This document shows, piece by piece, positions 24,317 through 60,238 of a stretch of DNA of 64,000 nucleotides. The notes beneath the pieces are model-generated. The model was not told the DNA's origin, ran no database searches, and worked only from the letters and a program-made list of their open reading frames with translations. Positions within the stretch are counted from its first letter, which is position 1. Each line of letters begins with the position of its first letter. The DNA comes from a virus. The DNA lies in the IMG/VR virus record IMGVR_UViG_3300030102_005560, positions 1-64,000 of that record; one strand, given 5' to 3'. The position numbers and the translations under genes are program-made.

Positions 24317-24910
24317 GTGAATGAGATGTGGCCGGGGAATCTAGAGAGAGTGCAGAAGTACAACCGAGTCTCACACGAGCAGTACATCTCTTGGCTTCTT
24401 GCTAGGATAGACCTGCCCATGAGGCCGGTGTTCCTCACTACCAGAACTAGGGAGGACGTGGATGAGATTGTCCTGTCATCGATAGAGAAGAAGCCGACAC
24501 AGACGCCATCATGGGTAGAGGCTGCGCAGAAGAGCCTAGAGGAAGAGGTTGAGGAAGAGGTTGAGGAAGAGGTTGAGGAGCCCTCACAACCTGAGGTGGC
24601 ACCACAAGACAATCCATTTTCCGCTCCTGACTATGATTCATGGACAGTAGTAGAACTAAGAGAAGAGTGCAAGAACAGGGGAATAACCGTTCGAGGCACC
24701 AAAGCAGAGGTCGTTCTGCGTCTCCGAAGAGATGACGAAGGCCTGACACAAGACCCAGTCGAACCAGACGAAGACGAGTCTGAGGCCCCCGTCGAAGAGA
24801 CGGCTGCTGATGACTCGTCGGATGCCCCCTCTGAGGAAGAGGCTGCAACCGAGGAAGTGACACCAGATGCCGATAGCGGAGAAACAAGCAATATTGAAGA
24901 AGAAGAATGA
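24317..24910 (+). CDS. SAP-domain protein with acidic repeats
   Basis: The N-terminal 60 residues are helical (VQKYNRVSHEQYISWLLAR). A Glu-rich repeat follows, then a SAP domain (WTVVELREECKNRG with TKAEVVLRLR, about residues 110-140). A highly acidic, Ser/Glu/Asp-rich tail ends the protein. SAP domains bind DNA. Such a protein between tube and chaperone genes is not part of the standard tail set. The ATG at 24326 with GGTGA 5 bases upstream may be the true start rather than the GTG at 24317. The end overlaps the chaperone gene by 44 bases. Confidence 0.75.
   Translation: MNEMWPGNLERVQKYNRVSHEQYISWLLARIDLPMRPVFLTTRTREDVDEIVLSSIEKKPTQTPSWVEAAQKSLEEEVEEEVEEEVEEPSQPEVAPQDNPFSAPDYDSWTVVELREECKNRGITVRGTKAEVVLRLRRDDEGLTQDPVEPDEDESEAPVEETAADDSSDAPSEEEAATEEVTPDADSGETSNIEEEE
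24541..24576 (+). repeat. Tandem 12-base repeat coding EEVE units
   Basis: Three exact copies of ggaagaggttga lie inside the SAP-protein gene and encode the Glu/Val repeat. The repeat is in frame, so copy-number change would alter only the acidic linker length. Confidence 0.9.
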
Positions 24911-25229
24911 ACAGAAGTACGAGATAAAAGTCGACCCGGATGACCATGAGCAAATCATGGAAATCTGGATTCGGGACATCACGTTCTTCGACGTGCAAAA
25001 AGCAGCACAGAACATGTTCCTGATGAACGGGGATGAAGTATCATTAGACCTAGAGGGATACTGGAGTTATGCTTTCTCGGAATGGGTAGTGAGGACCAAC
25101 CCAGAACTGACAGTGAGCGAACTGAAGGAGATAAACTCCTTTGCGGGCCAACAGATAGCAGCGTTGCTACCCAAGCCAGATGAACTGGCGGAGGCGATGC
25201 AAGGGGGTTTTACGAAGGCGAGCAACTGA
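24867..25229 (+). CDS. Tail assembly chaperone, short form (gpG-like)
   Basis: The 120-residue protein lies directly before the tape measure gene and has the size and charge of gpG-type tail chaperones, which coat the tape measure during tail assembly. Near its end the codons GGG GGT TTT form a slippery sequence, then it stops at 25229. The start ATG overlaps the SAP gene; an in-frame TTG at 24894 is an alternative. The long form is described separately. Confidence 0.75.
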   Translation: MPIAEKQAILKKKNEQKYEIKVDPDDHEQIMEIWIRDITFFDVQKAAQNMFLMNGDEVSLDLEGYWSYAFSEWVVRTNPELTVSELKEINSFAGQQIAALLPKPDELAEAMQGGFTKASN

Positions 25230-25504
25230 AGGTTCAGCGATTCTTACAGAGGAAGACAATCAAATCCACTGAAGACATAGACTTGCAGAATCAGTTGTTC
25301 GCCTACATCGTGGCAAAACATTACGGCATATCATTGAGTGAGGTGTATAACATGGGGCAGGAGATATTCAAACAGTCGCTAATCTGGGCCCTAGCAATCC
25401 AAGAAGAGGAGAGGAAGGAGCAACGCAGACAGCAGGCTGAGAGCGCAACCAGCAACGAGACAGTCACCTTCGACTACGACTTCCTGCATCAGGAGGACTT
25501 CTGA
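24867..25504 (+). CDS. Tail assembly chaperone, -1 frameshift fusion (gpGT-like), about 212 aa
   Basis: A -1 slip at GGGTTTT (25205-25211) joins the short form to a frame open from 25211 to the stop at 25502-25504. That second frame lacks its own convincing early start and ribosome site. The added 97 residues are helical (starting YEGEQLKVQRFLQ) and end in a charged tail with TFDYDFLHQEDF. The second frame ends exactly at the ATG of the tape measure gene (TGATG). This reproduces the G/GT arrangement known in lambda and many tailed viruses. Confidence 0.72.
25205..25211 (+). promoter_or_regulatory. -1 ribosomal frameshift slippery heptamer GGGTTTT
   Basis: In the frame of the short chaperone this reads G GGT TTT, which fits X XXY YYZ. 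After a one-base back-slip both tRNAs re-pair well (GGG and TTT). The -1 frame then stays open for 97 codons to the tape measure start. A small hairpin lies 14 bases downstream. Confidence 0.75.
25226..25237 (+). other. Small inverted repeat downstream of the slippery site
   Basis: CTGAA and TTCAG separated by GG can pair over 4-5 bases and span the stop codon of the short chaperone form. It is weak alone but sits at about the distance where frameshift stimulators occur. Confidence 0.35.
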
Positions 25505-27689: not shown

Positions 27690-30600
27690 GTGTCAGTACT
27701 CAGTCGTAGCAACCACGCTTTCTTCTTCGATGGTGTGAGTGACAGCATCATCGTTCCTGATGGTCCCTTCATACTAGGCAAGAGGGACTCCTTGGGTAAC
27801 ACGAGCGTCAAGGAGTTCCTAGACGATGACAATGCGGACCCGCAGTTGTCAATCACCTCAGGCTTGTACAGCAACGAGTTGACCATAGAGGCTTGGCTCA
27901 TGCCTGACTGCGGTGGCACGGTAGTCGAGAAGTCAGGGCAGTTCAAACTCACCGTGGGCAACGTGGACACTCCCGGCCCCGCTACCTTCGGCATATATCT
28001 CAACAACGGCAGCAGTGACGAGTACCATGAGATAAGCACGGGTAACAAGACTGCCACGAGATATGAGGGAACGGTGTACCCCGCTTCCGAGTTCGGTGGT
28101 ATACACGAGTCCTACAACAGGTTTGACACTTCCACCTATGGAACGGCGACCGATTTGAACAGGAATCACAGGCAACTGCTTCACGTCATAGCCACCTTCA
28201 GGGAGAAGGGGCTAGAGTTGTACGTGAATGGTCAGATAATGGCATCCAAGAGCCTGAAGGACGTCCCTCGGACGATAGCGAAGAGCAACTCGAACATATA
28301 CATCGGTGGCAAGGGAGGGCAATTCAGAGGCGTCATGGAGGCCATTCACATCAAGGGTGGCTTCAAGCAAGGCATGACGCACGGCAAGTCTCCCCTCAAG
28401 GATGACACCACCATGCTCCTATACAGATTCGAGGAACCAATATCACCAATAGAGAAAGAGTACGCCTTCACGTCCATAACCAATGACTTCAATGACGCTG
28501 GTCTGAGCACGATATCAATCAGCGCTTCTGATGCCCAAGCCATAGCGACTCTCCTGACTGGTAAGGCTGCTGACCTCTCCAACTTCCCCAACGGCAATCT
28601 GGACTTCACAGTCACGCCCTACAGTTCTGGCAAGTACACAGTCGTGCACCCCACCTCTGGAAACAAGTACATACCTCACGTGCCCTACAACCTCCTAATC
28701 AATCCCAATTCTATAGACAGGAAGACGAGGAAGCCGAACCAGACTCCCCCTGAGAGAGTCAGGCTGCACTCGATAGACTCCATGTTCGGCGCTGCTACCC
28801 TGACGGTATCCAGCGTGCATCTGGACCATGACAGGGGTGTAGCCAACGATGGGCTCATGGGTGTCCTGAACAAGAGCAGGACCACTGACTCTGATGACTA
28901 CTTCGTCATCATCAGCGCTGACCTGCTCATAGACTCGGGCACTGGTAGACCCTACCAACCACCTCACTTCTCCACGCAGATAATTGACAGGACAGGCCAG
29001 ATGGTGATAGACGAGAGCAACTACGAACGACATGGTCTAGTGTACTCGTCGAGAATGGCAACTTCCACAGTCGATACGGACAACCCATTCGCTCCAGTAT
29101 GGTACTCCTCAGTGCCTAGCGAGTTCCAGATAGGACACAGCGGCAGGCACGTTAAGAACCACGTTGACGGTCACCCGTTCCTCAGAATGCTCCCCGATGC
29201 CAATGAGGAGATTGTAGACCTGAAGGGAGACGGGCAGGCTGATTTGATTGACATAATCTACGACCAGATGCAGGATGGCGTGGAGCATCAGATATCGGTC
29301 AATAGCAGGGTCGATGTGTTCAGGGACCTGAACGACCTACCCATCAACAGCATAACCAACACTACCACAGTCACACAGGTAGTCAACACGTACCAAGACA
29401 CTGGGAGCCCACCGACGGGCAAGAGGAAACTCCTAGCGATAGGTGGTCCTCAGATGGACTTCAGACCATTCGCTCTGAAAGGCCCCGTCCCACTCGTGGG
29501 TGAGGAGTACGCCTCCGACATCAGGAAGCATCATCTCAGGCCCTCTTCGCAAAGTCGAGTCGCCCTCCTTCACGTACCCCAACTGTCCACTAGCAACATC
29601 AAGTTCGCTCCCTACGTGGAGATACACTACAATGCCATGGACCTCACTGGTGCGAGCATGTACAAGCCGGTTACCGCTGGCTCATTCGTCTCTGGGCAGA
29701 CGTACATCATAGTCAGCATCGGGGACACTAACTTCACTACGATAGGGGCATCCGCTAACACTGTAGGCTTGATATTCGAGGCGACCGGAACAGGCTCAGG
29801 CACAGGCACAGCGCGACCCTACCACCCGATGCTCATGGTCGAGAAGACAGTGCCTGCATCCGATGTATCGATAGGCGCTGGCTCCTACGTCTATGATGCG
29901 ATAGCCGATTCCATATCATCGGGTAAGACCCTGTATGCCGCTGGTGGTGTCATAGACTTCGATGTCGGGAAACTACAGACGAACAGCAACATGCTTCAAC
30001 CGCACAACCTGATTGGTGACAACAGCGAGGGCTACGCAGCAGACAGCGATGTCGATGAGACCTCCTCCCCTGCCAATTACACTCCTCGTGAGAGTGATTC
30101 TTCTGAGAACAAGACTCCATCTGTCATACTCGACTCCACCAGCAGCGGAAGGAGCCACGAGTCGGTGTTCAACAAAGTCAGACTATCCAAGCCCGGTCAC
30201 AAGCACTCGCTCAATGACATAGGGGACTACTCCAGAGTTGAGCCACAGACAGTGCCCGGCTCACCCTCGACTGGTGAGTTCGACACTGGTATCACAACCT
30301 CGCACTCGCACGTTCACGAGGTGTTCGACATCATCGACAACGTCCCTCTGGTAAACGACAGCATCTCCAACATGAGCCTGATACTGCAACCCTCTGACAG
30401 GAGCAGGACCAATCAACTCAGCAGGGCGAAGTCCCTTCTAGACTCATTCGACACACCCAGCCAATTCAAGATAATGTGCATGATGAGCAGAGCGAGAGTC
30501 AGAAGCATAAAGGAGAACGACGCTGCTGACAAGGGGAACTACACGGTAGTGCATTGCGTCGGGCTATCCGAGTCAGCAGCGTCCAGAAACGTCGACTTCG

Positions 30601-33600
30601 TTGGCACTGGTAGCCCCGACTCCCACATAGTCAAGGAGATTGAGCCCAATGCGCCCGTGGTAACGGTCACACTGGGTGGTCCGGGTCAGGGTGCGATGGA
30701 CACCAAGCCGCTGTACCACAAGAGCAAACTAGCCCATGAGTCGTACTCCACCAGAAGAGCGTATGCCGTAGAGGCAGTGAAACTGGAGATGGACTTCCTC
30801 TCTGGCACTGGCACTCTGCACATCAGACCCCTGAACAACAACTCGGATGACCTCGCCAGTTGGGGCACGTACGGCTTCCCCCGCTATGGTAGCATCTACA
30901 TGCCGGATGGCAGCAGCGCGAAGTACTCATCCAAGACCGGAACCTCATTCTCATTCGTGGCATCATCACTTGGCTCCGGTGACTACCTATCGTCATCCGG
31001 CTCGGAGTACACCACGATAGCCCAACTGCTCAATGCGATTGGGCTGATGGCAGGCTCCACCAGCGGTGTCGTGGAGATATACGGCAACTTCACCATATAC
31101 AGCGAGCCTGACTTCGGTGACGAGTCGAACATAGAGAACGGGACAACCGTGAATGACAAGATGCACCAGAGCCTCAACGACGTCCAACACGACTACCAAC
31201 TAGGTACGCAATACGCAAGCACCAGAGCGCTTGTAGAGATACCGCTCTTCGCCAACCAGTTCTTCAAGAGCACCATCGGCCCTGATAACGGGTTCAAGAT
31301 TCACTTGGATGCCACTCACACAGCACATACCTACAACCCATCTCCTGTCGGTAGGAGGCCGAAGGGCACCAGTCCCGCAGACAGGGAGGCCGAATCAGCA
31401 TACTCCTTCGCCATGGCAAACAGGCAGTACGTCTCATCATCCACAGTGAAGAAGTGGACCGATACGAGAACCGTGAAGAGACTCTACGTCTCCAACATCA
31501 GCATATTCCCTGACTCATCCACATCGACTGACACGTATCAGGGAATCACTAACGCATTCAGGTACAGAAAGATAAACCTCGCCAATGGCGAGTACGCATA
31601 CTACACTAACGTGAATACCTCCAATGGGTATCTGGATATCCTCAATACCGAATATGGCTACAGCCCCGAGTTCTTCGACTCTCTGGAAGCAGGCATCACG
31701 GTCTTCCTGAACGAGTCCAGATTGAACAAGGAACTACCACCCATGTTCTCTGACAGCATCAGCCAGTCCTCCGACTTCGAGAACAGGAGCGAGTACTACC
31801 ATGACTCAGCCAGCGTCAAGACACAGGGAGGGAATGTGGATTACGGTCTCAGGCAGTACGTCACGGCAGTCGAGTTCAAGGCCGGTCCCGAGAGCAACCC
31901 ACACGCACCTAGGGTAGGACCGAGAAGGGCTACAGGCAAGGTGCTCAGCGAGTTGAAGACATCTCTCGGTAACGACGAGTTCGCCTTGACGCTCACACTC
32001 AGTCCGGATGAGTTCTCCACGTTCCCGAATCTCGGGTATGACACTCTGTCAGAGGCACCATTGGAAGCGGGAGAACTAATCTACGAAGTGCAGTACGATG
32101 ACTCTGGTACGATTCACAGGTACCACTACCATGGCAACCTCAAGACTGTAGGCTCACTGACCACACCAGAGAACAGCATCACCCTGACTTACACCACCAC
32201 AGGTGGCTTTACCTCGTACCCAGTCTCGATACTCAACAAGAGGATAACGCTCAGCAGGAAGGCCTCTAGGGTCCTGCGAGAGACCTCGGCGTTCGGTACT
32301 GGCTACACCTACTACGAGGGAGGCACCGTCTACAGGGAACTCTTCAACAACATGAACATAGACACCACCATCGCCATACAGCAGAATGACTCCTCCAGCA
32401 ATCCCGAGTCCCTGATACAACTCACGATGCCAAGCAACAGGACCCTGCATGACCTCCATAACATCAGCGTCAAGAAGGATGACGAGGTGTACTACTACGT
32501 CGATACCACCACTGATGAGTTGAGGAAGATAGGAACGGTAACCAGAGTCGTCAGCGGTGAGGGGTCCAACAACACCACCATACACCTGAGTGCCAATGCC
32601 CCTACAATACCAGCCAGTGCCAAGTTAGCAGTAGCAATGGGTGACTACGAGGACAAGGACGCTATCCTCAATGCCCATTGGCTGAACCCGTACGCTCCGG
32701 GTGGCCTCAGGAACGGTGACACCATCTGGGCCAACATGTCCTACAACAACCCGCATGCCGTAGAGGGGCTGTTCGCCAAGAGCAGAGGAGTGTACAACGA
32801 ATCACAAGTCTGGACGGAGTTCAATGGCGGCACCGGGTCACTCAACAACTCACCGAGGGACAGCATACCGATAGAGAACTTCATGATAGGCAAGACGTGT
32901 CTGGAGACTGCTAGGAACTACGTGCAGCACGTCAATCGGACGATAGAGGAGAACTACCTCGCACTGGGACTCACTGCATCCCAAGCACCCACAGTGGCGT
33001 TCGTCGACCCCTATCTATCCACTCCCACCCATGCTAGAGTGCTGCTGTACGATACGGCGCACGATAGGGAGTTCGTGGCATTTCAAGACATCTTCATGCA
33101 GGTGCAGACGAGCCCAGAGACAACCCAACTGGGATGGCGAAAGGAGGTCGTAGAGGGCAGTGCGAGGAAGCCGTTGCACAAGGTCAATGCCCAATACGCG
33201 GGTAGCGGACCGAGCCCTTGGACCACGCAGATTGACGTCACTAACGGATACCCCTCGCAGAACCCGTTCATCAGGAGCACCCAGCAATCTAAATTCATAG
33301 AGAGCGCGTATGCACATGACCTAGCCAATAGGCAATCCAGCGACCTATTGGGGAGCACTGTCCCCACTGGTTCCTACACCCTACCCACTGATGGTAGGAG
33401 CAGCACCAGCGTCAGGATATACGGAAAGGCCCATGGTCATCACGTGCACACCGAGTACTCCCTCGGTGGCACTCTGTCCAACATCAGGCTCGGTAACAGC
33501 ACCGTTCCCAGAACCAACGACTCCGTGGTGCTCCACAAGGTCGCAGATGAACTGCACTTCCTAGGTAGGAAGCCTGCTGGTACGAACGTAGACGTATTCA

Positions 33601-36600
33601 CCAAAGAACTAATCAAACTGAGAGAGGGCACCACTGGGGCTACCTTCAGAGACCCCTCCACCTTCTTCGATACGCCAGATGGCACTAGAGTGATACCAGC
33701 CTTCCTATGTCTCAGAGGCATAAGGGCAGAGTCGCTGGACCTGACATCACACGAGGAGGGCAGACTGCAACACCTGCCCGAGTGGAAGGACATGGACTTC
33801 GTCAGGAGACTGACTGTGGACATGGGCGTCGTCAAGAACAAGGAAGGAGTGGTGAACATCACAAAGGCTGCCGAGGAGGTAGTGAGGCTAATCAACCAAC
33901 ACGGCGCTCTGACTGCAAGGACAGAGAACGGTTCCGCTCATGACCCCTCACCCTTCTGGCACGTCGATGACAAGAACAAGGGCACGCACATGGGTTACCT
34001 ACGTGCGCACATAGGGAGGGAGGTCAGGGACCTCAACGGTGACATAGGGGTATCAGTGGTCATACACAGCACGGTCCCCGGTGCGACAGGCAGGAACTTC
34101 TGCGTCTGGTTGGACAACAGCACTGGGCAGGATACCTACCAACCAGAGTTCATGATAGGTCACGGTGGTAGATGGAGGAACTTCTGGGCTCTACCCGAGG
34201 AGACCGAGGGCGAACTCATGCATCCAGCACCCATGCCCCTCAACAAGCATGGAAGGCCGTTCGCCCCCATCACCACCTTGCAGCAGTACATCACATCGGA
34301 GGAGAGCGGGGAGGACGTACAGAGCGTCGCTGACTTCGAGGACGACTCAGTGCTGAGAGCAGTCTCCGACTCCATCAGCGGCAAGAGCCACAACTCAATC
34401 AATGCGGAGTCTCTTGACGTCAAGGGTTCATCATCAACATTCGTCAAAGGCCTGCGCACTGGTTCTCGTGCGATGGCCAGAATCAACTTCGGTGGCCTAG
34501 TGGCAAGCGGTGTACCGGGATGGGCACCTAACGCTGGCAAATGGGGCTTCGGCAAGGTGAACGACTCCTCCTTCGATAACAGGTACGGAGAGTCCACGAG
34601 CACCAGTTACGGGTCGTACGTCCCTGCTGCTGACATACTACCGGACAACGTGGGCACGTCCAATATCTACGGCTTCAGATTCAAGGACAACGTGGGTACC
34701 GAGCACGGCGTGAGGTACATCTACAGGAGGGATGGAGATTCCTTCTCCAATGAGAACACAGTGCTACCCACAACCATAGAGGAGGAGGTGTGCGTCTTCT
34801 TCGATGACAGGGACGTCGCGCAAGGCGGCTTCACGATAGGCAACTCGATGCAAGGTGACAATGACGCTACCGGGAGAATGGACTTCACTTTCGTCAGTGA
34901 GACTCTAGGCAACAAGTGGAAGGGTGCTAGATGGAGAGGAGTGAGTGCTCCCAATGCTGCTACGCTAGTCACAGCCAGCGTCAGTAGCACCACCATGACC
35001 ATAGCGTTCCAAGCGCCCTTCGATACTTCCTTCACCGATGACAAACTAGGTTACCTCGGCTTCCCCAGAGAGAATGGTATAATCCAAATCACCGATGAGG
35101 ATGGGGATGGCGATGCGGATGTCGGTCTCACTCTCTCATACGGCAGCAGGAGCGGGACACAGTTCTTCGATGTGCTAGGGCTACCCGGCTCTTGGACGAG
35201 CGGTGACTACCTCATCACCTCGGTCTTGAACTGGACTTGCCTCGTAACGGATGAGTTAATCGCGGCTGCGACTGCTGCTGCAATCAACGCTGGCAATGAG
35301 ATAAACAATCCAGACGGACTCAAGTTCGATTGCAGAGACATGTACGCCACTGATGGTAGGACCTTCGGCGAATGGGGCGTGAGGGAAGATGCGATAACCA
35401 TCAGGGCGTTCAATCCCAGCAAGAACGTCGCACCTCTCAACGAGTCTTTCTCAGCCACCCTCCACAGGGACTTCGGAATACACGCCGCGCACCTAGAGTT
35501 CGGTGAGTTGAAGAAGACAGTCAGACCCACTGGTGCCGCTAGTTGGAACTTCGACACCTCAAGAGCACTGACTGATGCAGTCATAGACGGTAGCAGAAAC
35601 GTGGATTGCGGATACCTGCCCTTCAACATACTCAAAATAGACAGTGTCGCAAGAGGCCCTCACGCCAACACAGCAACTCCCTTGTTCGTTGATTCCAAGA
35701 ACAACAAAGCGAGCACTAAGGAGTGGGCTCGTGGTCTCAAGGGGCTCAGTTTCACCAGAACCTCAGGAGACCACATACTACCAAAGATAGACAACCCGTT
35801 GACGAGATACGAGACCGCTTGGACCGCGATAAGCGAGTTGGTAACCGATGGTGAGTTCTCAGAGGGATTCACTGGTGCCATAGCCGTGGACACTGGCAAT
35901 CCCACAAACGAGATAGTGGTAGGTGACCTAATCGCTGATAACGCTGATAGGGTGCTGGGCCGAGTCACAGCACGAACCTCTACGAGCATCACCTTGGACA
36001 GCCTCAGAGTCAGCATCGCTGACAACCTGATAATCAACAAGAGACAGTCACTCGACAACTCCACCAAGAACTGGCAGAGCAGCGTCACTCTGTCAGCATC
36101 TATGTTCCACTTCGCCATACCAGCGGGACAAGTAACTGGTTCCATCATAAAGTCACTAGGGGAGAGGAAGAGAGTCTACCTATCACCATCAGCATCAGTG
36201 GTGGCTGAGAGCAAGGTCGGTACCAGCAGCGACACAGTGCTCCAATGGGACATAGACAACTCGATAGGGAACATGCCTAGGGAAATCACCTTCAACAGAA
36301 ACCTACTATCCACTCATACGAATCCCGACTTCGATGGGTTGCGTTCCGTGGGTAGCGTGTTCTCGGAGCCCATCGTGATGTTCAGAGGCGGTAGGAGCAG
36401 CAAGGACCACAGCGTCCCTCTGTTCTTCGGTGGTGGCTTCAGTGGCGTCACCCTCGACGTCAACGACGGCACTCAGAACGACTACTCGTCATTCTACACC
36501 CACCCATATGCAAACGGACCAACTGGTGTGGCTGGGATACAGAATGCGAATGAGATATCCACGAGTTTCGCCATGCTGGATGCCAACGCCATGTTCGCAT

Positions 36601-39600
36601 TCTTCCCCGGTGCTGCGCTGTGCAACCAGCATCGTGGTAGCATCACTCCACCTGCGTTCAACAAGGACAACGTGCTTGCACCTGACTTGCATAGCACCAC
36701 AACCCTAGCGAGCGACGTGGTCACAGCGAAGCCAGTGCCTTTAGTGCTCAGGTTCCCACACCCCACAGCGAGGTACGAGGACCATCTCGATGGCACTGAG
36801 AACAAGACCACGTACCTCGTCTTCGGTCCCGGTCAGGCCTTCCCATTCACTAGGGAGGCTGCTGACGGCACTGGTCTAGGACACTCCAGCGCAGACACGG
36901 GCAATAGGTTCGAGCCCAATCCCGGACTCATAGTCACAGCGACCAACAACTCGACATGGGCGTCCGTACCAGACAGCGACGGGCAATCTAACCTGCTGTT
37001 CCCCAACTCCATCGACAACGACAACTACGCATTCGGCCCATTGACCAAGACACGATACAACGACACTGCTGGCTTCCATTGGAGAGCGATGGTCAACTGG
37101 GAGACCCCGGCAGGTTATTGCATGAAGGGGAAGTTCCTGCAAAGACCATCACATGGAAGGCACTATGGACAGCAGTTCAGCGATGCCACACCGTACAACG
37201 TCATCCACCTCCTACCGATACACCCCAAGATGCACACTCCGGTGATAGCATACGGTATAGCGATGGCCGCCGACACGGTATGGCACATGGATGGTGGCTT
37301 CCATCCCGGTGGGCACTGGATGGACAACCAAATCACATTCAACCCGCCGCACCCATCAGCCTCCAGTAGAATCAACGGCACCTCTTGGCCGAGAGCAGAC
37401 CAGATACACCCAGCCGCATTCAGGGTATCAGGAGCCATGCTGAGCAAGACTCTCGATTACATAGGCTCCTCCGATACCGTCACCACCAACGACTCCAAGA
37501 TGGAGTACATCGTTGTGGATGCCACACGCGCACAGAACGGCGAGGAACTGGCAACCGTTCTAGGGGCAGCGATAAACGCATTCCCCGGTGGTGGTGCCTT
37601 GAAGGCACTTGGAGGTACTCACATGCCCTCGATGGGTAACTCCCTGAGGCAGGACAGGTACGGCTGGGTCTCCGTAGGAACGTCCTCGAACGGGGTGCAG
37701 CAGGCAACGTCAGTATCACCCAATCAAATAACCAACTTCATCACAGTCGATACGGGTAACCCGAATCAGGTCACGGCAGAGCAGGTGCCAGCCTCAGGAT
37801 GGCTGAGAGCGCATGTGGGCAATGCAGTGAGTTGGGCTTGCTACCACTCTAGGGAGATAAACGCAAGCGGTGACATTACCTTCCTACTGGCACCCAACAG
37901 GATAGAAGGCAAAAGCGAGTTCGAGGACAAGGAGACTTGGGAGGACCATGCGAATGGTAGCGCTGATGACTTCGCAGCAGTAGCCAGCAACGCCACCATA
38001 TTCGTATGGTCCAAGGCTGGTACGATACGCTTCAACAACGAGAATGACAGCACCCGCGACCACATGACGCAGGTCCACTTCTCCGGCATAGCAGATGCGA
38101 TAGACAGGACGAAACCAATCGGCGCAGTCGGCTGGCACGGAGAGAGGTACTCGCATCTCAACAGCCTCAAGATTTCAGTCTCTACAGTCAAGAACGGTGC
38201 AACGAGCACCACAACTGGATACGCTGCTGGTCTCGGTGCCTATCATCCAAGTCTAGCATTCTCCCCCTACGGCACTGCCGGGACCGTGATGAGCGTGCAT
38301 AGTTCGGTGCCGGTAGTCGCACCCATGAAGCACAGCCCAGAGAGCGTCTCCCCAGTCGATGGCATAGGAACCAATGTGGCTGAGGCTCTCACCAAGAGCA
38401 GGTTCTACGTCAACTTCCCAGATGCCAATGGAGATGGTTGGTCAACAGGCACGCTCACCCCCTACTTCCAAGACAGCGACATCACCACTGGTAGCGTTAC
38501 CCACTGGTCGTCGCCCACCAACTACACCACCACCCTACCTGAGGAACTGACACACCCGCAAGGCGTGTACACCAGTGCGTTCCTAGTGGTCAGTTATGAG
38601 TGCGAGACTGCGCTAAAGAACAAGTACGACCGTGACCTGATACAGTGCAATGGCGACTGGCTCCATCTCAAGACGACGAGCACCAACAAGATACGTTCTG
38701 CTGGTACATCCCAGTTCGACCCTAGGATACACAACCAAGACAGGTTCACCGCACCAGCCAACGCAGGTCCGAATGTGGAGGCACTCATAGTCAGCGGCAC
38801 CTCAGTACCCACTGGTGATGAGAGCGTCGCCAACTGGTCAGACAGCGTGACTTGGTCATTCTTCACAGCGTTCAGCGACAAGACGGACAAGGACAACGAC
38901 CTGTCCATGAAGAACGCGATACCCGGCCTCAACAAGACGGGTGACCTGCTATTCGACCTAGACCAGAGCATAGGCTCAGCGCTTCTCCAAACTGGAGACG
39001 CCAAGAGGAACGTATCATCTGACAAGTACACCGGCACTGCCTACACAGCCAGCACCGGCAACAGCGTATCATATCCCACCGAGTACTGGATGGGTGACGT
39101 CAACGCCTTCCAGATGTACGAGAACTCACCAGTGAAGAACTTCACAGTGGAGAACGTCGTATGGAAGAGAATGGATGGCGGTAACCTATCACTACCAGCG
39201 ATAAACGCCCGTGGTCTCGGTGCAGTTCCTTGGGTCACTAGGGTGGACACAACGGGTTCATCCGACGTATCGTACCTGACTGGAGAGAAGGTGTACGGTA
39301 ACGTGCGCTTCTCCTTCGAGACTACGAACAGTGCCATGATGCCTGTGTTGCAGGCTCAGGAACTAGCCCATCCTGAGTTCATCAAGAAGGTACCGTACTC
39401 AGTGGGTGGCGTGCTAGAGATACCAAACGAGGAGGTGCAGTTCCAGAGCATCAGCGTCATCGATGACAGCGGGCAGGAGCATGTGCTGGAAGGTGGGAGC
39501 CCATTAGGCACGGTCATCAGAGGATTCAGGACACCACCAGACAGAGGCGTCAATGGGAAAGCACCAGCGCTCGCCAATAGCGGTAACACGCCCAACCTGA

Positions 39601-42600
39601 AGGTGATGCTACCTAACCCCGACTCCATACCCGGCAACCTCATCGTACGCTCTGGTTTCGACCCCATACAGGCCTACCAGAACGAGACAATGGGCTCGGG
39701 TGGGATGATACACCCAGACCTCAGTGAGACGCACATAGGCCACCTGTTCGACAACTCAGTAGCAGGTCCTAGGAACTCTCCCACATACGAGGACCACAAC
39801 TGGGAGAGGATAGACCCAGTGACGTTCGATTCCGAAGTGGGCGGTTGGAACAACAACAACCCACTCAAGTCCTCATACGAACTACATGACAGGACGCTCT
39901 TCTTCCACGTCACTAAGATGGGTCACACTCATACCCATAGGTATCCCACTGTGTACGACTACTCCTCCGGCTCATCAGGAGCATGCAGCCTGCAAAACCA
40001 AACGGTCTCGGTAACGGCATGGAACTCCACCAGCAGCCAGTTGACCGTGAGCCAGACTTTGGATTCCAGCGTATTCAGCGGTGGCTTCGGTACGAAGGAG
40101 GTGATGGATGACAGGAGATTCCTGAGAGTCTACAACCCAACCACTGACGAAGGTGCAGTCTGCTCGTACACCACCGCTGGTAGCACCACCATCACTGTCG
40201 TAGGTGATGTGGGTTTCGCTGACTTCATGCTCGCACAGACAGTGACTGACCTCAAGGTGGTACCGTCCTACTACGTGCCTGCTGGTTCGACTAGGTTCTT
40301 CGCTGCTAGGAGAATGAGGGACCATGCTGAGGTGAGTGGCAACTCCCCAGATATGGCACACACCAGATACTTCGCCGGTGACACAGTCGCATACAACGCA
40401 TATAGCAAACCCAAGATGACGCCAATGCCCTACCCGAGGATGGGACATCACTTCGTCACGCCCACGATGCCGATGCTACCCGGCCATTGGGCACATCCCG
40501 CTTACCAGTCATTGTACAGAAGGCATTTGGTCGACTTCAACGCATCAGTGTCATTCAAGGACACTGACCTGCTCAACAAGTACAAGACGCCCACTAACAG
40601 CCTGTCTGACATAGAGACGGCTCAGAGCATAACATTCGTCGATAACATAAACCCACTCGAAGCAGAGGTGAACTTCAGTGGTGTAAACGCAGCCCCCAGC
40701 GGTCCCAGCGACATTCATGGAGGCGCGTTTACGCTCATGTTCGAGACGGGTGTGAAATATGATGGTTACGGAATACTAGCATCCTCTGGAACAGCAGGTA
40801 CCATGAACTCCTTGGGAGGGCACACCATCATCCTAGAGGCAAGTGCCAACTACACATTGGAGAAGCACTTCCCAGACCCCGCTGAGGTTGGTGCCTATCA
40901 GATAGTAATCCAACCCAACGTGTTCTCCAACCAACTCATAGGATATCACAACAACGCCACGGTGGGGCTCACGAGCCAACAGGTCAACACAGTGGTGGGC
41001 ATCAAGAGGGATTCGAGCAGAAGCACCAAGATAGGGGGTCTAGGGCTAATTCTAGCAAAGGAGGTGCAAGCAGACGTCAGAGGCTGCGAGGTGTTCATCA
41101 ACGAGATGATGCTCGATGTGAGTCCAGACTACGGCAGTCAGTTCACCAACATACCACCCCTCATGTCCTACAACCCCCTCGGTGTGCAACTGACAGAGTC
41201 TCCGTCATTCACCAGAAGGGGATTCCCCTATGCTGTCATGTTCTCCGATGCCACACCGGGCTATACTCTGAATATACCTTGGTGGTCAATACTGCACAAG
41301 AACGGTCCCCAAGGCACAGATGCGACCAACTACAGGGGTCTGAGCCAATATGGTCCCGATGACTACTACCTATTCTCAAGAAGCACCTTCGGTAGTGTAG
41401 GTAATCAACTAACAATCAATGGATATACCTCAACGTATATCGATATATATTCAAGTATACGTGAAAATATATCTATAAATCCAAAAAGTACAGTGGTATC
41501 ATTCAGTAGTGCATCTGGTAAAATACAAATTAGCAACTCAAATACATTCCCTATATCTCCATACTACTCACAAGTAGTAGAATACACAGGAAAGAATGGG
41601 AATAGATACACGAAAACCCTGCAAAGCAGGAGTGGTGCTCTATTCGATGTCAATCAAGGCGACTACTTGCAGTTGCAAGCGGGCTCCGATGAGTTCTGGA
41701 CGAATCTCTACGATGGCGCTGTAGTGCGTCTGTCCTACAAATACGACACTCTGCCTGCTGGGGATATATTCACCAACGAGGAGAGAAGCGTATTCGCACA
41801 TATCCTTCCGGACATAGTGGATGGGAACCAAGATACCAACAATGCATTCCTACCTGACGCATATATGTGTATGTGGCATCCTAATTTAGGTAGACCCAAT
41901 ACGTACTTCTCAGATAGTAGAACCACTTTGACGAGCAGTGCAATCGACAAGGACTCGTACAACTCCCTACCAGAGCACTTCGAGACCATTCACTACCACG
42001 ACTTCTCGCATGTAATCAGCACTGGTCCCTTCGACTTCCTCATCAAGACCCCCAAGAGCACTAGGACAGGGGAAGTGACGTCTGGTGATTCCAGCCACGA
42101 CGCCGGTGGAACCAACGTGATGCTAAGTGGCTTCTGGCCCTGTGGCAGCCGTGGTGGTGCCCACGCCAGCAGGCTGGACGTATACTCGTATGCGTCCTCG
42201 ACTTGGAACCTGCATGCCACAACGGACAACTGCAACTTCTCATCGGCATCCAACAAGGAATGGACCGATGCCGATGACGATGGCTCTTACTCGCTCAGCA
42301 ATGGCCTCGCAGTCGGGAGCATGGGTGGCACCAGAAGGAGGCCGTACGGATACCGTAACGCTGTACGTCAAGCCAATAACAAGCCTCGTTACGGTGTCAA
42401 TCCAGTCAGATTCCAACACGAGGAGACGGCGAATACGGAGGGTAACAACACCCTAGACTATGATGCTGGCCCCCTAGTGCAGATTGAGACCTCTGACTGG
42501 GGCTGGTCTGGCAACGGTACGGATGATGACACATTCCCCACCACGTACGTGGGTGTGATGGAGAGGCTGACGAACTTCACAGGCATGCTAGGGCACGACC

Positions 42601-45600
42601 AAGCCAACGTGCAAGTGAGGTACAGCGACGGTCGTAGGATGACTCGTCCGTTCGGCACACCTGTGCGTACTCTGAGAAACCCCAGCGGTGTCGAGAGGGA
42701 CTGGTGGGGAGACAGCGAGGGGAAGGGCGAAACGAGCCTCTCTGTGGCCTCCCAGTACTATCTGGTGGACTGGTGGGGCAACGAGCGCGGAGAGGACGTG
42801 AGACGCGCTCCAGTGCGTGGATTCGGCATCCGCCCAGCATGGGACTGCGGCAATGCCTACGAGGAGGACAGGACCAACACCGCTGGTGCTGACAACCCGT
42901 CCAACACAGTGACGATAACCTCCTTCAACAGCCTCGAGAGAGACACTGCCTCCACTGCGCAAATCACCATCTCGGGTGACATAACCAACTATGTCAGTCC
43001 TGCCAACGCAACTGCCTCGATTGCTATAGCGAACAGCAATGGACTGAACACGGACGTCTTCCCAGTGGGAGAATCAGCCCAGATAAAATTCGGACTTCAA
43101 CCTGCGGATTCCGATAACACAGACGCGAACAACTTCATTCAGTTAGTGAGCGAAGACGGCGCACAGACCACTAAGTGGTTCGCTAGGACCAGTGGTACCA
43201 ACGGTGCTGCCCTGAGCGGTAACAATGGGCAATTCACTTACCCGTCGGGTGCAAGGCAGTACAACATCGGTGCTTCTGTCGTGCTTACTGCGAGGAACTT
43301 CAAAGGAGCAGTGGAGACTTACAGTCAGGGCTTTGCTGGTTCATTGTCCCAACCACAGCAAGTTGTAAGTGATGTACTAGGTGCAGACGACACACAGAAC
43401 ATCACTCTGACTGCTGCTCCCACGGGCTCTGCTCCCAACAGGGTAGGAGCGACCAGTGCGACCCTAACTCTTGGCAGCAGTTTTGCCTCCCACAACACCA
43501 ACAACCCCAATACGATAGCCGTCGTTGACTTTACTGGTGGCATCAACGAACTCATACTGGGTGAGACCACGGGCTCCAATGACAATACAATCAACTACTT
43601 CACAATAACAGACAGTGCTAGTAACGTGAAGAACTACTTCCCATCACATGATTCAACGAATCAGCCTACTGGCTCTACTGGCACTAGAACCTTCGATGAC
43701 GGTAGCACCAAATCCGTTGTGTACTTCAACTTCGCTAGTAATGGAAACAACGGGGCCGCTGGTCTTGCTTTAGTCCAAGCAATCAATGGGTCGTCTGGAC
43801 ACCCAAACACAATATCAGCACAGAACAATGGCAGTGGAAGCGTCGGCCTCACGCATGACTTGGCTGGCACTGCTGGCAACGGCGCCGCACTGGCCAAGAG
43901 CAACATAGCAGACAGCGTTGCGACAATCTCAGGCAGCAACTTCTCAGGAGGCGTGACGGAGGAGAACGCAACCAACACACCCTTCATACAAATCATCGAC
44001 AACGAGTCGAGCCCGACGACGAAGAAGTACGTGCCAGTGAAGAACGGTGACGCTCTAGGCAACGGCAACAATGGCGGGGGCAGCATAGGCGACGTCACTG
44101 GTGGTATAGCCTTCCAAGAGGGAGCATCAGCAGTCGCCACTGCTGACAACCTGAGGATAGCGATAGGTCACAGCAATGGTCACGACGGCACTGTGCTGAC
44201 TGATGCGGCTGGCAGCGCCGCTATCACCCTCACGCAGAAGACGATAGGGGCAAACACAGCGGCCATCACCCTGAACAACCTTGCCTCCAACATCAGCAAG
44301 ACCAACTTCAGCGGTGGCGGGATTCGAGACAACTTCCTCGGACTGACTGATGCGGCAGGGACGCTGAAGAAGTACAAGGCCTCGAACACCGCAGCGAACG
44401 GCAGCACCGATGGTACGTACGTCTTCTACGATGCCGCAGCCCCATCCCAGAACAGCACGGTTGCTGAGAATCTCGAGACTGCCATAAACAGCGTCAACGG
44501 TCACAACGGCACCCTTACCACGACTAGGACCAACAATGCAATAGAAGTCAGGCTCAATCAAGCGACAGTAGGCAGCGCGGCAGTGAGTGACAACGTGACA
44601 GGGTTGACGACCGATGTCTCCTTCACCTCGGTAGTGCACCAGCCCAGAACCCCCTACAGGAGAATCTGGAACGATGCCAAGCCAATCTACAACCTCAAGG
44701 GGATTGCCGACCTTTCCAGCGGGAACATATCCGTCACTGCCGGGAATACCATACCCAGATTCGGCGGTGTGTTGAATGACACCAACAACAATGACACTAG
44801 CAACCTAGTGGATGTCTTCGCACCGACGCATTCCCTCAGAGTCGGGGACATGGGCAACGGCAGGGGAGTCAGATACCCCACTGCGTTCAACGAGGACGTA
44901 GTCACCGAACTTTCATCACCTACCCACACCACAGGCATGGTGCTCAGTCACAACACAGCAGAGCCACCATTCGGCAATGGTCTGATGAGACCTCGAAACG
45001 ACGTCCTAGAATCCGATGAGGTCCCAAGAGGAATAAGCGCTAGACTAGGGATATCCGAGAACGGTCTGCTCAAGCCGGATGCCGTAGTGAGCGACAGGGT
45101 CGAGGAGGTCGTGGGGAGCAGCGTACACAAGGATGCTGTATCCAGAACGAGCCCTAGGATAGGCATAGACGCTGACACGGTGGAGGGCATAGAGCAGCAT
45201 CACGTGGTAATCAACACAGAGGCACATAGCCTACACACGGATAGGGACATAGGCCAGAGGGTCCTGCTCCAAGGAGGGAGCCAAGTCAAGACTAGCAGTG
45301 CAAGCACTCTCACTGATGTGAACTACAACGCTCTCTCCTTCGCTAGACAGTCATCCAGCGGGTCTGTGGTGAGCGCTGCTCACAAGTTCAGCCACACATC
45401 TACATTCAGACCGTATGGTGGTACGTATCTGATTGACAGCAAATCGTACTCGGGTCTCTTCGATGACACTGGCTGGGGAGTCACTAGCCTGACCGGCTCC
45501 ACTGACACCTCCAATCCATATCAGGACCCTGACAACTATTCGAGTGACACAGTGAGGAACAACGAGAAGGACAAATCGGTTGAGTTCCTCCTTCGCCCAA

Positions 45601-58520: not shown

Positions 58521-58742
58521 TCAACTTTCTCCGCCGCTGGTCATTCTAGGCAACAAGTTTCTCTTCTTTTTGAATACGGAGTCCTGCCAGAAGTGCCCGC
58601 ATTTCTTGCACTGCCACAGTTGTATTCTCTTCTTTATCGCAGTGGTATCCCCGTTGTGGTATCTAGCAGTGAGACGATGTGGGACGTGAGTGTGATTGCA
58701 GTTTCTACACTTCACTTCCAACCGCTTCATCAGTCGTCCCAT
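58521..58742 (-). CDS. Zinc-ribbon protein, 73 aa
   Basis: CRNC and CKKC pairs separated by about 30 residues form a zinc ribbon. The protein is very basic, as for nucleic-acid binding. The ATG at 58742 overlaps the chaperonin stop (TGATG) and has GAGGAG upstream. Function unknown; a transcription-related role is possible. Confidence 0.7.
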   Translation of the reverse strand: MGRLMKRLEVKCRNCNHTHVPHRLTARYHNGDTTAIKKRIQLWQCKKCGHFWQDSVFKKKRNLLPRMTSGGES

Positions 58743-60238
58743 CACGCTCCTCTCTTTGCTATGACATCATCAATCTTGAGTATGGCCGTGGTGACTTCAG
58801 TGGCGCTCAGCACAGCCTGCCTGATGAGGGAGGATGGCTCTACGACGCCCGATTCATTCATTGACACTATGCCTTCGTTCTCCAAGTCCGGACCCATGTC
58901 TAGCGAGCCATCCTGAATAGCGTGTCTCAGGCTCAGTATGCAATCCAATGGGTCTTGTCCACCGTTCTCCGCTATAGTCGCAGGAATAATCTCCAGAGCC
59001 TCAGCGAATGCCTCTATCGCCATCTGTGCCCTTCCCTCTACGGTCGCTGCTTGGGAGCGCAGGTATGAGGCCATGGATGCGTATGCACTACCACCACCAG
59101 CGACTACGCCATCGCCGTTCATCACGAGTGAGACGACCCCCAATGCGTCATCGAAGCCACGCTCAATCTCATCTAGCGTCGTCGTTGTGGCACCGCGTAG
59201 CACGAGCGTGGATTGGTCTGAGTCCACCATGCCCTCTACGAATATGTAATCGACGTCGTAGTGCCTTTGCTTGTGCACCTTGCCTCTAGCAGCGCACTCG
59301 ACGTCCGAGGGCATCTGCGCTATCGGCAGACCCAGCGTGGACGAGAGGGCTTTCATGGTGCTCTCCGGTAGTCTCCTGACCACTGCGATGTCGTGCTTCT
59401 TGAGATAGGCACAGACGTGGTCAGAGGCACCATCCCTGACAAACACCACACCACCCTTGGGCAAGTGATTGGTGAGATTCTTAGCCTGTTCTAGCATGCT
59501 TTCCCTATCCGAGGACTTGAATGCGTTGTAGCCCTTCATATCCTGTAATTGGACCTGTACGTTCTGCTCTGTCTTCTCTGGCTCCAGTCCCATGTTGACC
59601 AGCAGTATGTCACACTCCATGTCCACCTCGTGCTCTATGACGTAGTCCTTGTTGACTATGGCACCGTTGAACAGATAGGAGTCCCTGAGCGAACCGCCCG
59701 GTAGACTGAGCACCCTCACCTTCTCTGCGTCTCCTGCCTTCTTGACTGCCTCCACGCAAAGTTGGGATACCGTCTCGGTCGCAGAGTCCAATGTCTTACC
59801 TGTAATAGCAGTCTTCGCTACTGACGTCAAGGTTTCATCCGAGGCGTCTCTGGACAATGAGTCCTTGAGATAATCAGTAGCCATGTGAGCGGCCTCGTTG
59901 TAACCCTTGCAGACGAGATTGGGATGCAAACCCCGATTCATCAGGTTCTCACTGTTGGTCAGTAGTTGTCCCGCTAATACCACCGTCGACGTGGTGCCAT
60001 CGTAGCACAGGCTCTCCTGCGTATGCGCACACTCGATTATCATCTTGGCGCCGGGGTGAGCAACGTCCAATTCCCTCAGTATGGTTGCTCCATCGTTGGT
60101 CACGATAGCGTTGCCGCCACCGTCTACCATCATCTTGTCCCTGCCGTTGGGCCCAAGCGTGCTCTTCACAGTGTGCACTATCGTCTTCACTGCGTTTATG
60201 TTCGTTCTCAATGCGTTTTCGTTTTCGTTTTCCGTCAT
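58742..60238 (-). CDS. Group II chaperonin (thermosome-like)
   Basis: The 498-residue product is an almost full-length archaeal-type chaperonin. It would form a two-ring folding chamber driven by ATP. ATP-site motifs are TLGPNGRDKM (27-36), NDGATIL (48-54, D49), YDGTTST (79-85, D80) and the late GGGSAYASMA. The C-terminal part has ENGGQDPLD and LKIDDVIAKRGA, typical of the family. It is about 45 residues shorter than cellular thermosomes, mainly at the N-terminus. It probably folds virion proteins, such as the giant tip or capsid. It lies one base after the exonuclease stop. Viral group II chaperonins are known from magroviruses. Confidence 0.93.
   Translation of the reverse strand: MTENENENALRTNINAVKTIVHTVKSTLGPNGRDKMMVDGGGNAIVTNDGATILRELDVAHPGAKMIIECAHTQESLCYDGTTSTVVLAGQLLTNSENLMNRGLHPNLVCKGYNEAAHMATDYLKDSLSRDASDETLTSVAKTAITGKTLDSATETVSQLCVEAVKKAGDAEKVRVLSLPGGSLRDSYLFNGAIVNKDYVIEHEVDMECDILLVNMGLEPEKTEQNVQVQLQDMKGYNAFKSSDRESMLEQAKNLTNHLPKGGVVFVRDGASDHVCAYLKKHDIAVVRRLPESTMKALSSTLGLPIAQMPSDVECAARGKVHKQRHYDVDYIFVEGMVDSDQSTLVLRGATTTTLDEIERGFDDALGVVSLVMNGDGVVAGGGSAYASMASYLRSQAATVEGRAQMAIEAFAEALEIIPATIAENGGQDPLDCILSLRHAIQDGSLDMGPDLENEGIVSMNESGVVEPSSLIRQAVLSATEVTTAILKIDDVIAKRGA

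Follow-up and report, generated by a model that had tools for sequence, protein, structure and literature searches.

With a probability of roughly 92%, ribosomes translating the tail assembly chaperone gene of this virus slip into the -1 frame at the heptamer G_GGU_UUU, aided by a downstream RNA stem, and thereby yield a 212-aa long chaperone beside the 120-aa short one. The following features of the sequence carry this reading: (i) the slippery site; (ii) the relation between the two frames; (iii) constraint in both frames; (iv) the absence of a start for the second frame; and (v) a covarying stem. The window is the whole 64 kb stretch of DNA that was analysed, taken from an IMG/VR virus record that spans 81 kb.

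The virus and its tail module

The capsid protein of the virus is related to that of the Druskaviridae, with 33-35% identity to the proteins of HVTV-1, HCTV-1 and HCTV-5 (35% for HVTV-1), and the morphogenesis and replication modules oppose each other. The gene content includes a thermosome, a family B polymerase, a clamp-loader-like ATPase, and PD-(D/E)XK and ERCC4 nucleases; the thermosome-like group II chaperonin lies at 58742-60238 on the - strand (E 1e-125). Magrovirales, viruses of Poseidoniales, have been described with such a gene set (PMC10768690) and, read against the published description of that order, the gene content would place the virus among the archaeal Magrovirales. It is a marine tailed virus, probably with an archaeal host; scans of host genomes for the chaperone and the thermosome found nothing and gave no host link.

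The two overlapping frames of the chaperone sit directly upstream of a tape-measure-like gene, as in the lambda G/GT-type arrangement (Table 1). The product of the latter gene matches mainly tape measure families in PHROG (the best at about 5e-9), together with one stronger match to an endolysin family (3e-12). The candidate tail tube protein is placed by its position, its only Pfam match being to Phage_tube_2 at E 0.44. Between the putative tail tube gene and the chaperone gene, the gene at 24317-24910 has features that one would not expect in a tail module: its product contains a SAP domain (PF02037, E 1e-10) as well as an EEVEEEVEEEV repeat. Elsewhere in the tail module, a single open frame at 27690-46121 encodes 6143 aa, an unusually large predicted virion protein.

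Table 1. Positions in the window of the chaperone frames, the predicted frameshift signals and the neighbouring genes.
Feature	Position	Strand	Basis or remark
Candidate major tail (tube) protein, 685 aa	22259..24316	+	Two genes upstream of the chaperone; position as in HVTV-1/HCTV-5
Frame-0 ORF, tail assembly chaperone (G-like), 120 aa	24867..25229	+	ORF translation, AlphaFold, BFVD fold matches
SD-like GGAGG, possible stimulator	25190..25194	+	10 nt 5' of the heptamer
Slippery heptamer G_GGT_TTT	25205..25211	+	Sequence; position common to 114/114 relatives, with variants
-1 frame continuation (T-like domain), 98 codons and stop, from TTT TAC	25208..25504	+	ORF; kept in 114 relatives
Conserved RNA stem, 5' arm core	25218..25227	+	Extended arm 25216-25229; 6 nt 3' of the heptamer
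Conserved RNA stem, 3' arm core	25293..25302	+	Extended arm 25291-25304
Tape-measure-like gene, 299 aa	25504..26403	+	PHROG tape measure matches; ATG overlaps the -1 stop (TGATG)

The slippery site and the relation between the frames

Around the site, the frame-0 codons are CAA GGG GGT TTT ACG AAG GCG AGC AAC TGA. The heptamer is thus in the correct phase, as the preliminary description had it; contrary to what was also stated there, the frame does not end at TTT, since five further sense codons precede the stop. Two other points of that description hold in the window: (i) the -1 frame, open from 25184, runs up to the tape measure start, its TGA stop at 25502-25504 overlapping the ATG of the next gene; and (ii) it lacks a good start of its own, the first ATG, GTG or TTG past the site being a TTG at 25283, 24 codons on, and the first ATG lying at 25352. 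The predicted fusion of frame 0 and the -1 frame is the 212-aa protein.

The + strand of the window has a single GGGTTTT, which is also the only in-phase one among about 18,800 scanned codons. In any case, a heptamer followed by an open frame is not decisive, because the window has 22 other in-phase X_XXY_YYZ strings and because, of 2094 open runs in alternative frames, 8 are at least 98 codons long; the case was therefore made with relatives.

Relatives and variants of the heptamer

Viral contigs were scanned for relatives, which yielded 393 loci and, among them, 114 distinct chaperone regions; these form 72 clusters at 95% and 36 clusters at 80% fusion-protein identity; the most distant relatives share 39% identity with the window. 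Some of the search peptides lie at the slip site, with a possible bias towards conserved sites, and others (LFAY, DxQxAAQxM, FxQSxxWA, NETVxLDY) lie well away from it. The two most divergent relatives, L293 (with 4 kb flanks) and L308, each combine a site and a hairpin in a way of their own and, as single sequences, are of use as outgroups.

In all 114 distinct relatives the second domain lies in the -1 frame and joins at the same codon. An arrangement that the preliminary description had named as incompatible with frameshifting, i.e., relatives without a slippery site and with a separate, well-started second gene, was looked for in the 114 relatives, and none is split into two independently started genes. 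Of the two features that it proposed to follow in alignments, GGGTTTT and the frame relation, the latter is kept and the heptamer itself varies: G_GGG_TTT is found in 63 relatives, G_GGT_TTT in 37, G_GAT_TTT in seven, A_GAT_TTT in six and T_GGT_TTT in one (G_GGT_TTT or G_GGG_TTT in 100/114; R_GAT_TTT in 13/114), and the type switches about a dozen times on the tree of relatives. The A-site codon is TTT in every relative, a codon that accounts for 8% of the Phe codons of the window, and this conservation is partly forced because the -1 Tyr codon starts with its final T.

That the two frames overlap by chance, or through a sequencing error or a pseudogene, is scarcely credible. The 8 of 2094 alternative-frame runs mentioned above speak for such an overlap, but it would have to recur across 114 distinct sequences drawn from numerous separate assemblies, and the -1 frame is under purifying constraint. 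Frameshifting in the +1 direction was rejected, as the +1 frame is open for at least 60 codons in just five of the 72 clusters.

Frame of constraint and absence of a second start

Silent changes were tallied as parsimony counts on the tree of relatives, with changes on branches treated as independent. Over the 29 nt that lead up to the heptamer, 130 changes are silent in frame 0 and not in the -1 frame versus 21 of the reverse kind; from the heptamer to the frame-0 stop, the corresponding counts are 26 and 38. The constraint hence lies on frame 0 up to the site and on the -1 frame beyond it (Fisher p = 5e-11), so that selection acts on the -1 reading from the heptamer on, ahead of the NTG codon overlapping the stop. 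Across the -1 frame, substitutions by codon position number 852/604/1433, with the excess in the third position.

These counts also bear on a second domain made separately by termination and reinitiation at that NTG codon (NTGA). Overlaps of the NTGA type support coupling in prokaryotes, and many relatives carry TTGA, GTGA or ATGA at the stop. Nevertheless, a TGA in the given phase creates an NTG in the -1 frame automatically, so that the codon is a by-product of the stop: it is CTG in the window, CTA is found elsewhere, and no NTG is present in relatives with a TAA or TAG stop. Furthermore, 39 of the 114 relatives, the window included, have no ATG, GTG or TTG in the -1 frame up to codon 20, and the -1 constraint is already seen in the stretch from the site to the stop, which precedes the NTG. 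Reinitiation is, in consequence, very improbable.

The downstream RNA stem

Frameshifting at the heptamer is further supported by a stem. The 100 nt past the heptamer fold at -35.1 kcal/mol in the window, with a z of about -5 to -6.4, while the lowest z among 580 tiles across the window is -3.89. The core helix, beginning 6 nt 3' of the heptamer and so within the 5-9 nt expected of a conserved stem or pseudoknot, covaries in the window's clade: it is present in 37 of 37 clusters of that clade, with compensatory changes. In the alignment of these clusters, 89% of cells are paired, and five pairs have changed on both sides (29 such cells); the pairing and covariation were matched by none of 500 shuffles, sliding the stem arm lowers pairing to about 35%, and RNAalifold returns exactly the core helix and nothing else. 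Although the 37 clusters were grouped by predicted helix, the group is not hand-picked, since its members make up one entire clade of the protein tree. Over all 72 clusters, the fold energy beats that of synonymous-codon shuffles with a mean z of -2.8. At the level of sequence, a conserved stem just 3' of the site is unusually strong evidence for frameshifting.

The picture differs by clade: (i) in the sister clade, the 5' arm stands at the same distance and the 3' arm lies 43-52 or 56-61 nt downstream, with limited or no covariation; (ii) in the L063/L374 clade, a far 3' arm (129-157 nt) is paired, without covariation; and (iii) in further clades, no supported helix was found. A scan of the window against Rfam gave no match. 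Near the start of the chaperone gene, 24921-25020 holds a second strong fold (z about -4.9), which is probably no conserved element because at the same offset the mean z of the relatives is only -1.2 versus synonymous shuffles.

The frameshift may be real and the stem incidental, either as a by-product of codon choice or with another role, e.g., in mRNA stability. The positions that covary are synonymous or wobble ones, the 3' arms of related clades are different or unproven, and neither HVTV-1 nor HCTV-1 has a strong structure past its site. Against this stand the compensatory changes in the arms, the margin of the fold energy over synonymous shuffles in the 72 clusters, and a spacing of 6 nt that is standard for stimulators; an incidental stem is unlikely, albeit the likeliest of the alternatives considered here.

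The placement of the mRNA stem 6 nt downstream of the site likewise fits ribosomal slippage better than transcriptional slippage on the G/T run. Runs of five to seven G followed by T runs do occur at the site, but they are short and variable, and the frame relation is kept in relatives without a long run, such as L128 (TCGGGTTTT), L114 (GTGGTTTT) and L247 (GGAGATTTT). Transcriptional slippage is thus still less probable than reinitiation at NTGA, and both were discarded on the sites, starts and constraint of the relatives.

The upstream SD-like element

An SD-like duplex of -6 kcal/mol or lower is formed in 72% of the 72 clusters, compared with 32.5% after synonymous resampling, as judged with a generic archaeal anti-SD assumed for the host. 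Because the element is missing in several whole clades, its role is suggestive only. Neither this element nor the stem figures in the preliminary description.

The chaperone domains

The first-frame protein is predicted by AlphaFold with a pLDDT of 81, the residues past the slip site being disordered. Its BFVD matches include tail assembly chaperones of HHTV-2 (E 2.5e-5) and of a Bacillus phage (4.5e-4), with a weaker match to phage Mu FS-gp41; the predicted fold hence resembles that of annotated tail assembly chaperones. The -1 domain is predicted to be helical (pLDDT 81). Its best structure match is a 92-aa viral protein, 62% identical, and the next annotated match is, with a weak E-value, the same Bacillus phage chaperone. 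The first-frame protein had no match in Pfam or NCBIfam and insignificant ones only in PHROG; a profile search of PDB sequences and a fold search of the PDB found no match, nor did searches of phage records by sequence with either half of the chaperone.

Proposed mechanism

From these features we infer slippage itself, its efficiency, the parts of the stem and the SD-like element, and the function of the two forms. Most ribosomes would end at the 120-aa form, and a fraction would slip by -1 on G_GGU_UUU and, reading on in the new frame, would give the 212-aa form. The stem may make the ribosome pause on the site or hold it there under tension; a further aid, within the window's clade, may be the GGAGG lying 10 nt 5' of the heptamer, through pairing with 16S rRNA. 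As in lambda, the domain common to both forms would coat the tape measure protein, the -1 domain would recruit tail tube subunits, and the slip frequency would set the ratio of the forms.

For E. coli, what counts most is whether the A-site codon can re-pair in cognate fashion, and U_UUU ranks with the better tetramers (PMC4066793); in mammalian systems, G_GGU_UUU is among the shiftiest heptamers (PMC5009743). Two points count against the mechanism: (i) the G_GGG_TTT sites of 63 of the 114 relatives bar the usual cognate A-site re-pairing; and (ii) the stem is not universal across clades. R_GAT_TTT sites retain U_UUU, and G_GGG_TTT sites retain G_GGG and may slip via the P-site tRNA.

The evidence leans, by a little, towards an order-level group of marine archaeal viruses with a structure-stimulated -1 frameshift built from exchangeable parts, in which the site is G_GGU_UUU, G_GGG_UUU or R_GAU_UUU, the distance of the 5' arm is fixed and the 3' arms differ by clade. 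If so, this would be the first broadly conserved, structurally supported -1 signal for archaeal ribosomes. Given the constraint switch, the exclusion of starts and the stem, a short cassette would suffice to test directly whether archaeal ribosomes respond to mRNA stems and internal SD-like elements. The annotation is also corrected, as ordinary gene callers miss or split the long chaperone in these abundant marine viruses.

Comparison with known systems

Lambda makes short and long chaperone forms, gpG and gpGT, by -1 slippage directly upstream of the tape measure gene. The layout of the window is alike, and a frameshift of the lambda G/GT type, as first proposed for it, is supported at the sequence level by the frame relation in 114/114 relatives and by the chaperone-like fold. 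The window differs in its U-rich heptamer, its covarying downstream stem and its likely archaeal ribosome, and no sequence match to the lambda chaperone was found. In E. coli dnaX, the heptamer A_AAA_AAG is flanked by an SD-like element about 10 nt upstream and by a downstream stem; the window shares both elements around a -1 heptamer, in an unrelated gene.

Among the Druskaviridae, HVTV-1 and HCTV-5 (genes 128-130) have an annotated joined chaperone CDS in the -1 relation, between the tail tube and the tape measure, like the window. But while their site, G_GGA_AAG, has an A-rich A-site codon, that of the window is U-rich, and HVTV-1 and HCTV-1 lack the strong structure past the site that is found here. 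In a profile comparison, the HVTV-1 chaperone halves ranked top of 33 HVTV-1/HCTV-1 proteins (E 0.00095 and 0.0079), with weak sequence similarity to those of the window (HHalign probability 22% and 5%), and in both viruses the aligned part of the first half stops at the slip site. This suggests that the frameshift predates the split of the virus groups and that the heptamer was replaced.

The preliminary description called archaeal frameshifting little studied, which understates the precedent: besides the joined CDS of HVTV-1, -1 frameshifts of the tail chaperone gene have been predicted in haloarchaeal viruses since 2013. Predicted -1 sites are G_GGA_AAT in Hardycor1, G_GGA_AAC in HCTV-1 and A_AAA_AAC in HCTV-2, and a +1 frameshift is predicted in HSTV-2 and HF1-like viruses; these cases differ from the window in heptamer or direction, and the parts of the sources consulted describe no conserved downstream stem in archaeal virus chaperones (PMC7911831, PMC5009743, PMC7230728). 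The sole archaeal -1 frameshift with experimental support is that of S. solfataricus fucA1 (A_AAA_AAT) (PMC8211752) which, unlike the window's, concerns a cellular gene of one lineage, is not kept among relatives and has low expression. The kind of frameshift is hence already known and the candidate stimulator stem is new, with an earlier mention of frameshifting possible in the 2013 halovirus papers or the first magrovirus genome reports (PMC5434244, PMC11706807, 10.1111/1462-2920.16287). While the haloarchaeal virus cases rest mainly on the finding of a heptamer, the present one adds the constraint switch, the exclusion of starts and a covarying stem.
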